From NCBI GenBank assembly GCA_026395755.1, contig JAPLYC010000022.1, forward strand, positions 1 to 38,180: 38,180 nt of DNA. Direction: 5' to 3'. The notes under the pieces were generated by a model, which saw only the letters and a list, made by a program, of their open reading frames with translations, did no database searches and had not been told where the DNA came from. The stretch comes from Candidatus Parcubacteria bacterium. GTDB taxonomy: Bacteria; Patescibacteriota; Patescibacteriia; CAIXNZ01. Both the position numbers and the translations under genes were made by a program. Shown piece by piece: positions 15,490-18,726 of the stretch; the stretch's first letter is position 1, and each line of letters starts with the position of its first letter.

Positions 15490-16291
15490 TTAACGACTGG
15501 CCAAATATTCCCTCAATGCCTCCTCCCAATTTCTCAAAGGGGGCAACTTAGTATTAATTAAAGCTGAATATGACGGGCGTTTCGCCGGCCTGATATACTC
15601 CTGACTACTACAAGGTAAAACCTTAGCTTCAAGCTTAGCCAGCTCCATTATTTTCTGGGAAAATTCAAACCAACTGATTCCTCCCTCCTTTGTTTCATTA
15701 ATTGCATGATAAACGCCAATCAACGGCATATGTAGGCTTACCAAACTGATCATTAACAACCCTTACTTCTTTCTGCTCTGCGCCCAATTTCAGCATTGTC
15801 TCCACGAAGTTCTTGCCGTTTTTACCGTAAATCCAGGAAGTGCGAATTAAATAATACTTACCACCGATATTTTTTAAAGTCTTTTCACCTGATAATTTTG
15901 ATTCCCCGTAAAAATTAACCGGACCGAATTCCTGGGAATCTTCGCTATATCCCTTGACATTTTGACCGTTAAAAACATAGTCCGTGGAAATATGAACCAA
16001 AATCGCGCCAATTCGTTTAGCGCAGAAAGCCAAATACCCCACTGCCTGATTATTTAATTGCAAGGCCAGATCCTTATGTATCTCACAATTATCAACGGCC
16101 GTATAAGCCGCGCAATTTATAATAATTTGCGGATTTAAGGCTGTAATTTTCTTATCAACCATATTTTGATCGGTAATATCAATTTCTCCCTTATCCCATA
16201 GTGTTAAACTAAAATCAGCCAAAATCTTGACCAAATCCTGCCCCAGCATGCCTTTGGCGCCCAAAATTAATATTTTTGTTTGCTTATCCAT
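15490..16291 (-). pseudogene. rmlD: dTDP-4-dehydrorhamnose reductase, broken by deletion and frameshift
   Basis: Reduces dTDP-4-dehydrorhamnose to dTDP-rhamnose when intact. The frame from the ATG at 16291 reads MDKQTKILILGAKGMLGQDL (Rossmann fold), then HISTDYVFNG, NFYGESKLSGEK and VVNDQFGKPTYAVD. It then shifts into DWRLSCN and stops at 15698. A second frame, already open from 15759, carries the rest: GVYHAINE, then GGISWFEFSQKI, RPAKRPSYSALINTKLPPL and NWEEALREYL, ending at 15490. Compared with family members, the ~18-20 residues normally between the PTY.VD and G.YH motifs are missing, so this is a deletion of several tens of bases plus a frame change, not one miscalled base. An assembly or mapping error is still possible. 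The catalytic Tyr and Lys remain in the first part. Confidence 0.85.
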
Positions 16292-16324: not shown

Positions 16325-16360
16325 AAATAAAAAAGCCTCCTGCCTGCAGCAAAAGGCTTA
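16325..16360 (-). terminator. Intrinsic terminator of the 119-residue protein gene
   Basis: On the minus strand AAGCC (16355-16359) pairs with GGCTT (16333-16337) around a 17-nt loop with its own TGC/GCA pairing. A T-run (TTTTTTATTT) follows. The stem overlaps the stop codon at 16358-16360. Confidence 0.7.
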
Positions 16361-16717
16361 ATCCATTTCTTGATCAAGGAACTCACCAAATGAAGAATTG
16401 TCAAAAAGTTCCTGCCAAAAATTAGTATCGGGAAAATACTGACCAGCCTTAACGATATTAGTCTGCGATTTGTCCCAATCTTCAATTTGCAGATACCAGT
16501 AGGCCAAAAGGCCATAGACAATGGGCAAATCGCCCTTTTTTGATATCTCCAATAACCAAGATTCGACCTCCGAAATCAGATGCGTGAACCTCATACAGGC
16601 AAATTCCGTAAAAAAATCCAGACATTCCTGATCATCAAAATAAAGTTCCATTTTTTCATCAAACTGCTGAATCCTAGTCAGCCATAAATCTTTTTCCGGT
16701 TGCGAAAATGCTGTCAT
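16358..16717 (-). CDS. Small acidic helical protein of unknown function
   Basis: A 119-residue soluble protein, all-helical by appearance and rich in Trp, Phe and acidic residues. It begins MTAFSQPEKDLWLTRIQQFD. A stretch near residues 75-105 (GLLAYWYLQIEDWDKSQTNI) resembles one TPR repeat. The frame extends to a TTG at 16735, but that would place the SD AGGAGGT inside the gene, so the ATG at 16717, 6 nt after the SD, is chosen. It is a self-contained unit: near-consensus promoter, strong SD, gene, terminator. It shares its SD leader style with the gene at 18260-18667. Function unknown. Confidence 0.8.
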   Translation of the reverse strand: MTAFSQPEKDLWLTRIQQFDEKMELYFDDQECLDFFTEFACMRFTHLISEVESWLLEISKKGDLPIVYGLLAYWYLQIEDWDKSQTNIVKAGQYFPDTNFWQELFDNSSFGEFLDQEMD

Positions 16718-16750: not shown

Positions 16751-16779
16751 ATTATAGCTAAAAAAATTATAAATGTCAA
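16751..16779 (-). promoter_or_regulatory. Consensus promoter of the 119-residue protein gene
   Basis: On the minus strand, perfect TTGACA (16774-16779) and perfect TATAAT (16751-16756) are 17 bp apart. It is back to back with the plus-strand promoter at 16789; the two -35 boxes form the inverted repeat GTCAAG/CTTGAC. Confidence 0.9.
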
Positions 16780-16788
16780 GAAACAAGC

Positions 16789-16817
16789 TTGACTTTAGCC
16801 TAAAAAGATGCTATAAT
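16789..16817 (+). promoter_or_regulatory. Promoter of the small-protein cluster, extended -10
   Basis: TTGACT (16789-16794), 17-bp spacer, perfect TATAAT (16812-16817) with an upstream TG (TGCTATAAT). The first gene starts at 16852, leaving a leader of about 28 nt with no SD. Confidence 0.9.
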
Positions 16818-16851
16818 GAAATTAATATATTAACAATTAACCGCTAAGAAT

Positions 16852-17352
16852 ATGCCGAGTTTTGAAACAATGAAAAATGAAGAAGGGGAAAAAGTACCTG
16901 GATTAATTCAGGAAAATGAAGCCATGAGCCAGGCTCATCAGGAAGCATCCGGCTTACTAAATACTTTAAGCAGAGAAAGCGCTAAAATGGAATCCGCTAC
17001 CCCGGAAAAATTGCAGGAATATATTGCTTATTGTGAAAAAAGGATCAAGAGCGACCCCAGAATAAAAACTTACCCGGGCTTAGATGAAAGCTATCGTAAC
17101 GCCCAGCGAAAAGCCATGGCCTTACTGGAAGAACAGGGATTTTATTTGGTATCTAAAAAGATTCTAGCGGCCAGAAAGCTGGATCCGACAGCCAAAGCTC
17201 AAGCGACAGAAACAATAATTAAAGATTTGAATTATATGCTTAATGATTGGCAGAAAAAATTTGAAGGCAATGTCTCACCGGCCAAATCCGAGAGGCTTGG
17301 AAAATTAATTTTTGAAACAAAAGCCTTAAGAGATTCACAATTTAACGCATAA
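16852..17352 (+). CDS. Small helical protein of unknown function
   Basis: A 166-residue charged protein that looks wholly helical, with long Lys/Glu/Ala-rich stretches (for example TPEKLQEYIAYCEKRIKSDP and LDESYRNAQRKAMALLEEQG). No signal peptide, membrane segment or recognised motif. The ATG at 16852 is the first start after a very strong promoter; no SD is present. It is the first of four small plus-strand genes (16852-18232) and ends at its own terminator. The C-terminal region (YMLNDWQKKFEGNVSPAKSE) is again helical. Perhaps a structural or regulatory protein; I cannot name a family. Confidence 0.75.
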   Translation: MPSFETMKNEEGEKVPGLIQENEAMSQAHQEASGLLNTLSRESAKMESATPEKLQEYIAYCEKRIKSDPRIKTYPGLDESYRNAQRKAMALLEEQGFYLVSKKILAARKLDPTAKAQATETIIKDLNYMLNDWQKKFEGNVSPAKSERLGKLIFETKALRDSQFNA

Positions 17353-17370
17353 ATAATTTCTATACCGGCA

Positions 17371-17402
17371 AAAAACTCCCCTGCGACGCGGGGGAGTTTT
17401 TG
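17371..17402 (+). terminator. Intrinsic terminator
   Basis: AAAAACTCCCC (17371-17381) pairs with GGGGAGTTTTT (17391-17401) around a short GCG/CGC-containing loop. It is nearly symmetrical and follows the first small gene. Confidence 0.88.
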
Positions 17403-17403
17403 C

Positions 17404-17431
17404 TTTACTTAATAGCCTGATTTGCTATAAT
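17404..17431 (+). promoter_or_regulatory. Extended -10 promoter for the second set of small genes
   Basis: Perfect TATAAT (17426-17431) with an upstream TG (TGCTATAAT), and a modest -35, TTTACT (17404-17409), 16 bp before it. It overlaps the end of the preceding terminator. The first downstream start is at 17461. Confidence 0.7.
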
Positions 17432-17460
17432 ACAATCAACATTATTATTAATATCTAAAC

Positions 17461-17625
17461 ATGGATCCTCAAACAAAACTGACAAAAGTGCAAGCCATAA
17501 TAAAGCGTTTCGCATCTAAAATGTCTGTGCTTGCTGCCCAAAAAAATAAAGTAATCGCCACGGCTCAGCAATCAAATGATTCCGATGCCCTGGCTCAAGC
17601 CCAGGAAAAAATAAAAAACTTATAA
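17461..17625 (+). CDS. 54-residue hypothetical small protein
   Basis: The ATG at 17461 lies about 23 nt after a predicted transcription start, and the frame stops with TAA at 17623-17625. The protein begins MDPQTKLTKVQAIIKRFASK and looks like an amphipathic helical polypeptide with a Lys-rich first half and a Gln/Ala/Asp-rich second half. There is no SD, signal peptide or known motif. Support comes from the promoter spacing, its place in a run of four small genes and the tight gap to the next start; no homology was available. Confidence 0.5.
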   Translation: MDPQTKLTKVQAIIKRFASKMSVLAAQKNKVIATAQQSNDSDALAQAQEKIKNL

Positions 17626-17638
17626 CTAATACAAAACT

Positions 17639-17761
17639 ATGAACAAAAAAATTGCCGAGAAAAAAATAAAAAAAATCGAAAGAGTGATAAAAAAATTCAA
17701 CAAAAAACTGGAGAAATTCGAGAAAAAAAAGATTAAATTATTGAAAAAAATTAATAAATAA
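17639..17761 (+). CDS. 40-residue lysine-rich small protein
   Basis: ATG at 17639, TAA at 17759-17761. It begins MNKKIAEKKIKKIERVIKKF. Eighteen of 40 residues are Lys, with Ile, Leu and Phe spaced to give an amphipathic helix, so it is extremely basic. That suits nucleic-acid or membrane binding. A poly-A-rich tract could give such a frame by chance, but the regular hydrophobic spacing and the position, 13 bp after one small gene and 27 bp before another, argue for a real gene. No SD. Confidence 0.45.
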   Translation: MNKKIAEKKIKKIERVIKKFNKKLEKFEKKKIKLLKKINK

Positions 17762-17788
17762 GCAAATTTAATAATCAATACTAAAAGT

Positions 17789-18232
17789 ATGAACCCAGAA
17801 TCTCAAAAAACTCCCGAGGCGCAAAAACGCGAACAAATGGTCGTTAATGAACAAGCACTCGCTTCCATGATCGATGTGCCTTTTGAAAATTTTTTAGAAA
17901 CTATCAAGCATGGGAATCCAAAGAACCCCGAGATCGCAAAAATAAATAAAGAGGCAACCGCTGAATTTGATAATTTTTTAGATGATTTAAATCAAGAAAT
18001 GCAAGCTGAGGAACAAGAAAAACCCCAAGCCAGCCCTGAGAATCTAAAACGTATTATGAATACAGTTAAGCGCGCCCTGGAAAGAAGAAAAGCAGAAGCT
18101 GCTTTTGCTATTGCTGAAGCAAATGCGGGCATCAAACCCGGCAGTCCCGAAGCAGCAAACATGGCCGCAGCCCAAATGGCCGCCTGGGAAGACAGAGCCT
18201 CTCAGCTAAGAAGACAAAAGAGACCTCAATAA
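17789..18232 (+). CDS. Small helical, Ala/Glu/Gln-rich protein of unknown function
   Basis: A 147-residue hydrophilic protein starting MNPESQKTPEAQKREQM. A disordered Pro/Gln/Glu-rich start is followed by acidic helices (about residues 45-80) and a basic, Ala-rich helical end (VKRALERRKAEAAFAIAEA and on, finishing RRQKRPQ). No family recognised. It is the last of the small plus-strand genes, 27 bp after the Lys-rich gene, and probably shares the promoter at 17404-17431. It ends at a bidirectional terminator. Like its neighbours it has no SD. Confidence 0.72.
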   Translation: MNPESQKTPEAQKREQMVVNEQALASMIDVPFENFLETIKHGNPKNPEIAKINKEATAEFDNFLDDLNQEMQAEEQEKPQASPENLKRIMNTVKRALERRKAEAAFAIAEANAGIKPGSPEAANMAAAQMAAWEDRASQLRRQKRPQ

Positions 18233-18240
18233 AAATAAGA

Positions 18241-18271
18241 AAAGAGATGAATCAAGTGTTCATCTCTTTTT
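18241..18271. terminator. Bidirectional intrinsic terminator
   Basis: AAAGAGATGAA (18241-18251) pairs with TTCATCTCTTT (18259-18269), an 11-bp stem with a 7-nt loop and a T-run after it. It closes the small-protein cluster, and its right arm holds the stop codon of the minus-strand gene at 18260. Confidence 0.88.
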
Positions 18272-18667
18272 GATTTGTATTTCCACGCCATCGGTCAATG
18301 ATACCGCAGAAAAATCAAGAAAATAATCCGCAAATTTCAGCTGTTCTTTACTCGCCATTTTTTGAGCCATTTTATGGTAAAGCTGATATAGTTTCAATAC
18401 CTCAAAATAACGGCTGACCAGCTTAGCGGGCATTTTCAGTTTAAGCAGATAATGCCCGGGATCAGTATCGTAAAATTTGATTTCCAGCTCATGGCCGATT
18501 TCAACAAAAAATTCAGGAGAGCCCTGATTCACCACTGAATCAAAAAGGCTGAAAATCTCATTGAAAATCACGTCTGTTTGCCTATCTAGTTCCTGCTCGG
18601 TTTGCCCCTCACTTTTAAGGAAAATATACGTAATAACAAAGAACATCAGCTTTTCTGCGTAATTCAT
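18260..18667 (-). CDS. Small protein of unknown function
   Basis: A 135-residue protein starting MNYAEKLMFFVITYIFLKSE. The first ~18 residues are hydrophobic but look like a buried helix rather than a clear signal. The middle is acidic with aromatic residues (IFSLFDSVVNQGSPEFFVEI), and the end is basic (EIQIKKR). The frame can be extended to a TTG at 18691, but the SD AGGAGG lies 6 nt before the ATG at 18667, so that start is chosen. It is another self-contained unit: consensus-like promoter, strong SD leader AGGAGGTGGCAC, gene, terminator. No known family; size and layout resemble the gene at 16358-16717. Confidence 0.8.
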   Translation of the reverse strand: MNYAEKLMFFVITYIFLKSEGQTEQELDRQTDVIFNEIFSLFDSVVNQGSPEFFVEIGHELEIKFYDTDPGHYLLKLKMPAKLVSRYFEVLKLYQLYHKMAQKMASKEQLKFADYFLDFSAVSLTDGVEIQIKKR

Positions 18668-18697: not shown

Positions 18698-18726
18698 ATC
18701 ATACTCCTAAAACAGGAGATTGTCAA
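18698..18726 (-). promoter_or_regulatory. Promoter with an inverted repeat in its spacer
   Basis: On the minus strand: perfect TTGACA (18721-18726), 17-bp spacer, TATGAT (18698-18703). The spacer contains CTCCTGTTTTAGGAG, a 5-bp inverted repeat between the boxes, which could be an operator. It drives the gene starting at 18667. Confidence 0.82.

Follow-up and report, generated by a model that had tools for sequence, protein, structure and literature searches.

A conserved divergent promoter pair and a separable three-gene module among fast-diverging small proteins of one patescibacterial family

What might a run of very small genes of no recognisable family do in a patescibacterial cell, and do the promoters in front of them point to abundant products? 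We asked this of a locus within a 38,180-bp stretch of contig JAPLYC010000022.1 of a Candidatus Parcubacteria bacterium (G000:C90; hereafter the window). The initial annotation had described four plus-strand reading frames of 166, 54, 40 and 147 residues, which it took to suggest something abundant, such as nucleoid, ribosome-associated or host-contact proteins. All four frames are present (genes A to D). They lie between two further small genes on the opposite strand, T and E, both of which had gone unlisted:

16358..16717, minus strand: gene T, 119 aa, predicted TPR-like and helical, divergent from A, led by the Shine-Dalgarno site AGGAGGT
16852..17352, plus strand: gene A (P0001), 166 aa, first of the cluster, all-helical model with a disordered N-terminus
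17461..17625, plus strand: gene B (P0002), 54 aa, predicted basic single helix, C-terminus KIKNL
17639..17761, plus strand: gene C (P0003), 40 aa, 48% Lys+Arg, paralogue of B
17789..18232, plus strand: gene D (P0004), 147 aa, slightly acidic, hydrophilic
18260..18667, minus strand: gene E, 135 aa, convergent with D, led by AGGAGGT and with a strong predicted promoter of its own

Outward of T lies an RmlD-like gene, beside what we take from its sequence to be an RmlA-like gene, and outward of E are VanZ-like and then RmlB-like (NAD-dependent epimerase/dehydratase) genes. In the window, rmlD (15490-16291, minus strand) is read as two overlapping frames (15698-16291 and 15490-15759) in place of the single frame of 283-296 aa in relatives, a split that reflects either a frameshift or an assembly error.

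The lack of a recognisable family was borne out: searches of A-D against Pfam, NCBIfam, PHROGs and PADLOC gave no convincing family (best E 0.012, far below the cut-offs), the curated nucleoid and ribosomal families of Pfam and NCBIfam included nothing near a cut-off, and Rfam returned no family over 15-20 kb of the window. These searches gave no homologue whose function is known. Hydropathy over 19 residues peaks at 0.69 among the window's A-D proteins, and none of them has a hydrophobic segment of the kind seen in signal peptides or membrane helices, which argues against export through Sec. A phage or mobile-element origin was considered and rejected: none of 50,697 phage records matched A or D, and IMG/VR, scanned with A, yielded no relatives; a phage or anti-phage system was likewise set aside, PHROGs and PADLOC giving nothing better than E 0.013. 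We found no description of the T/A-B-C-D locus in the literature searched on Patescibacteria and the Candidate Phyla Radiation.

The regulatory signals predicted around these genes were as follows:

16751..16779, minus strand: promoter of T, TTGACA-N17-TATAAT, 12/12 consensus positions, its -35 box 9 bp from that of A
16789..16817, plus strand: promoter of A, TTGACT-N17-TATAAT, TG-extended, 11/12
17371..17401, plus strand: intrinsic terminator between A and B, -25.6 kcal/mol, as good in 0/200 shuffles
17404..17431, plus strand: promoter before B, TTTACT-N16-TATAAT, TG-extended, 10/12
18239..18271, both strands: bidirectional intrinsic terminator of D (plus) and E (minus), -15.2 kcal/mol, as good in 0/200 shuffles
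18698..18726, minus strand: promoter of E, TTGACA-N17-TATGAT, 11/12

Both strong terminators of the initial annotation are thus present. Its extended -10 promoters before all four genes were found for A and B but not for C and D, which begin 13 and 27 nt downstream of the preceding gene and have no promoter of their own. Nor are the plus-strand promoters the best at the locus: the sole 12/12 site in the 5 kb scanned is on the minus strand and belongs to T. Such sites are more frequent than chance would give: allowing up to one mismatch, the 1.46-Mb genome contains 192 copies of TTGACW-N17-TATAAT and 36 of the pattern reversed. Against this, promoter-like sites in the 5-kb scan were not more numerous than in shuffled sequence (18 vs 15.6, sd 4.0). 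The promoters of T and A are two of the 26 mismatch-free sites among those listed genome-wide, and the back-to-back arrangement TGTCAA-N9-TTGACW has three mismatch-free places in the genome, so that it is rare and not unique. Terminators were enriched in the same 5 kb (19 vs 5.3 in shuffles, sd 2.7). A segment elsewhere in the genome (G000:C23:3930-3986) resembles the A-B terminator with 79% identity.

The AGGAGGT sites before T and E, which have no counterpart before A-D in the window, raised the possibility of a special Shine-Dalgarno class at this locus. We rejected it: in 377 kb (the window and 20 further stretches) a 7-nt site precedes 59 ORFs, against 23 with reversed words, making it a minority feature that is not unique here, in a sample of which some contigs may be foreign, since G000 is listed with 6.57% contamination. 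Within the window, one of 33 ATG-initiated ORFs of at least 140 aa has a Shine-Dalgarno site of at least 5 nt. On another contig of the genome (L110 520-11138, G000:C18), about ten plus-strand genes stand in tandem, with products of 104-301 aa that begin with hydrophobic residues, and nearly all are led by AAGGAGG; they could be an array of paralogues, or the contig could be a contaminant.

We then considered how far the locus extends among relatives, which include a congener (G001, JAPLYG010000016.1, Candidatus Parcubacteria bacterium), a member of another genus (G006), a Candidatus Buchananbacteria bacterium (G002, WJKP01000055.1), a Patescibacteria group bacterium (G003, JAQTMG010000003.1) and two Candidatus Falkowbacteria bacteria (G007, G008). 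Single-protein searches of 57 genomes found A in four (its own included) and D in two; against the genome contigs, A as a single-protein query gave no relative. Among 239 genomes of the class, a profile of A reached 10, seven of them among the nine genomes of the window's family (own included). The three weak matches outside the family (G035, G069 and G144; E 2e-4 to 6e-4) lie in frames of 496-971 aa and were judged chance coiled-coil similarity. T was found in seven of 191 genomes, all of them family members, with two copies in G006. T and A occur together in all seven genomes whose assemblies span the slot, A of G001 being recognised mainly by position; in G007 and G008, where T had no match, the contigs end at the slot and its status cannot be judged. 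The chromosomal slot of T and A, between rmlD and vanZ-rmlB, is fixed within one patescibacterial family. A gene of G006 (L052 8203-8598) is a relative of E by position and by weak sequence similarity (20-23% identity).

The order A-B-C-D is intact in G006 (L010: 3189-3782, 3837-4001, 4031-4147 and 4175-4678). In G001 the same positions are filled by a 209-aa gene, a 186-aa gene, recognisable B (52 aa) and C (32 aa, L049:7136-7234), and a 153-aa gene at the place of D. The 209-aa product reaches 7.3 bits against the A profile (as good in 1/500 shuffles), the 186-aa product shows no significant similarity to that profile, and the 153-aa product is unrecognisable to the D profile (1.2 and -0.6 bits, equalled by many shuffles). 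Slots of G002, G003, G004 and G005 hold T and A, with B, C and D absent. With the reading frames conserved in relatives, the suggestion of a functional cluster survives on conservation. Relatives preserve both the strong back-to-back promoters and the order of genes around A-D, so these genes are real, and they have the look of components of a single lineage-specific system.

Protein sequence has changed far more than arrangement. Identity to the window's versions is 21-32% for T, 23-33% for A, 28-35% for B, 37-50% for C and 24-35% for D, compared with 52-67% for vanZ, 60-76% for rmlD (the window copy being frameshifted) and 70-78% for GatB; slot and promoter geometry thus outlive sequence. 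The pair of T and A promoters is the best-conserved feature of the locus, even though T and A themselves are only 21-33% identical. In each of the seven genomes where both genes are assembled, A is preceded by a promoter with a TG-extended -10 box and a spacer of 17 nt. The -35 box of A lies 9 bp from that of T in six of these genomes and 3 bp away in G004. When the seven T-A intergenic regions are aligned, the longest blocks without variation fall on TGTCAA, TTG and TGnTATAAT. The rml/vanZ synteny may be simple vertical inheritance that says nothing of function. In G001, rmlB (L049 8220-9254) is 53% identical to that of the window, against 71-85% in five other genomes and 67% for the neighbouring vanZ, which looks like gene replacement.

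This conservation of the divergent promoter pair in 7/7 genomes makes strong expression of T and A a fair inference; as judged from promoters, high expression would be expected for these two genes only. The same claim is weak for B-C-D, since the terminator and second promoter between A and B are not seen in G006 or G001 and, in G002, B begins 2 nt past a gatB stop codon. This last arrangement came to light with a joint B/C profile (12 genomes), which found an extra pair in G002 at C19, away from vanZ (E 4.5e-4 and 0.05). There the order is a gene that we take to be gatB, B, a C-like frame and a 259-aa D, with a miaA-like gene on the opposite strand. The 259-aa D scored 29.4 bits with the D profile (0/1000 shuffles as good) and E 2e-8 by BLAST against D of G006, which is itself a relative of the window's D (E 6.8e-8); three marginal D matches beyond G000, G002 and G006 (E 0.008-0.027) were left uncounted. 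The presence of B-C-D both in the vanZ slot and behind gatB identifies the three genes as a unit occupying two slots, and hence as a separable module. It has no strong promoter of its own in G002, which counts against a need for very high expression. The C-like frame of G002 (L075 5454-5692) has no ATG, GTG or TTG start, overlaps the end of B and lies behind a run of seven A; this could reflect slippage that fuses B to C, loss of the start codon or an indel introduced in sequencing.

By profile comparison, B and C are paralogous lysine-rich proteins, each predicted to form a single helix. The C profile matched B of G006 with 22.1 bits, and the B profile matched C of G000 and of G006 with 15.4 and 14.2 bits, none of these scores being equalled in 1,000 shuffles. 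Scores were weaker for the G001 copy of B against the B profile (9.9 bits, 3/1000) and for the G000 copy against the C profile (6.2 bits, 8/1000), while B of G001 failed with the C profile (953/1000 shuffles as good). Relatives of B occur in G006, G001 and G002. The B/C consensus has a heptad-like spacing of hydrophobic residues which, together with a model of A containing six helices, agrees with the helical character first proposed for the cluster.

Models of T and A suggest what the divergent pair may encode. The T model (pLDDT 83.8, pTM 0.77) was built from four sequences and has seven helices. Foldseek gave it no match below E 0.6; its rows were mostly TPR proteins, headed by PcrH at that value. 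VIA-align placed TPR/HAT solenoids at the top (4hny chain A, Z 8.5, rmsd 3.5, 105 aligned), where for helical repeats a Z under about 13 perhaps reflects a common arrangement alone. Against the PDB, the best match of the T profile was a consensus TPR protein (E 1.6e-4 for the sequence as a whole, with no individual segment passing), and TPR_8 was detected in one of eight T members (E 0.0014). T bears comparison with small TPR/HAT adaptors (PcrH, Fis1, YrrB, the Sgt1 TPR domain) in size (about 115-140 aa), in its all-helical, hairpin-repeat model and in having one TPR-like unit in its profile, and differs from them in lacking a convincing family match, with weak E-values. The AlphaFold2 model of A (mean pLDDT 75.5, pTM 0.52) has residues 1-21 below pLDDT 50, and fold searches returned generic helical bundles only. 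The N-termini of A in G000 and G006 resemble those of genes in the gatB slot of G006 and G004 (MPSFETM, MPGFETI, MKGFETMP, MKGIESMP). A shared N-terminal targeting motif was nevertheless rejected as a general signal and kept as a curiosity: M-x-x-F-E-[TS]-M occurs just six times in 57 genomes (control, 1), too rarely for a widespread signal, and its sole carriers within the family are the gene in the window and that in the gatB slot of G006.

Our tentative preference, at somewhat less than an even chance, is for a strongly expressed, lineage-specific divergon of an adaptor and its client, joined in some genomes by a movable module. Two back-to-back sigma-70-type promoters would cause T and A to be made together; T would be a small TPR-like adaptor and A, helical with a disordered N-terminus, its putative client or assembly partner. 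B-C-D would form a separate operon-like module appended to A in some genomes, in which B and C, as paralogous lysine-rich amphipathic single helices, may contact D, a predicted hydrophilic helical partner. Together the five proteins would most likely make up an abundant soluble assembly, probably in the cytosol.

A degenerating or selfish island of ORFans, with no cellular role and with small genes coming and going at tolerant intergenic slots, is unlikely, if far from negligible. Such turnover is seen: B-C-D is found in four of nine family genomes, G006 and G001 carry extra genes, and there are no convincing homologues outside the family. The gatB slot of other genomes (the gatB-miaA gap; L083, L084, L085, L088, L089) also holds unrelated small helical genes, of families S (G000, G003 and G006) and S2 (G004 and G006), neither of which profile comparison relates to A or D. 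What an island of this kind would leave unaccounted for is a T and A promoter geometry nearly invariant in 7/7 genomes, and a B-C-D that stays a unit at two places. In G003 and G006, the gatB slot includes a small minus-strand gene led by a Shine-Dalgarno site, a layout resembling that of the vanZ slot.

It is distinctly improbable that these are nucleoid or RNA-binding proteins, in which lysine-rich helices of B and C coat DNA or RNA and are modulated by D and A. The composition of B (pI 9.65-10.8) and C (pI 10.1-10.8), with a net charge of +5 to +15 and no hydrophobic stretch, would fit nucleic-acid binding without proving it. However, the heptad-like spacing points to coiled-coil pairing, no nucleoid or ribosomal family was matched, and the joint B/C profile had no match at E<=1 in G003, G004 and G005, three of nine family genomes, which would be unusual for a core nucleoid protein.

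More doubtful still is a host-contact or secreted system with T as chaperone, in the way that PcrH serves a translocator, and A and D as exported clients evolving quickly under host selection. The fast divergence of the cluster proteins, the disordered N-terminus of A and the PcrH row at the head of the Foldseek results are all consistent with it. That row, which bears on a TPR fold of the SycD/PcrH type as in type III secretion class II chaperones, is not significant, however; the genes next to T are rmlA/D/B-like and vanZ-like, with no translocator or secretion genes adjoining the slot, and A-D have neither signal peptide nor membrane helix. Fast divergence is equally typical of loosely constrained helical proteins. 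A bolder form of our preferred divergon, to which we assign a low probability, would make T and A a co-expressed chaperone/adaptor-client pair and B-C-D a transferable accessory cassette of an undescribed patescibacterial machine, such as a host-interface assembly that is polar or exported by a non-Sec route, with a constant promoter geometry and rapidly diverging proteins. A leaderless two-peptide bacteriocin-like pair, which is typically made of tandem cationic small helices, is very improbable: B and C are tandem paralogues of 28-54 aa, cationic and amphipathic, but their composition differs (very high Lys, few aromatics), the cluster has no recognised immunity, transporter or other export gene, and in G002 they lie behind gatB.

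Small, fast-evolving proteins are a class in which similarity clustering may split families, as an earlier study warns (PMC6744442), and A and T diverge so far that they may be split in this way. Compared by kind only with the lineage-specific gene families of uncultivated taxa in the FESNov catalogue (PMC10849945), these genes are alike in being families of unknown function from an uncultivated lineage with a conserved genomic context. Patescibacteria are rich in small genes of unknown function that similarity clustering separates, and here orthologues among such genes can be traced from genus to genus by promoter architecture and slot instead of protein sequence, with a three-gene module present at two different slots. 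Concrete candidates, namely T, A, B/C and D, are thereby provided in a lineage where functional genetics is scarce.
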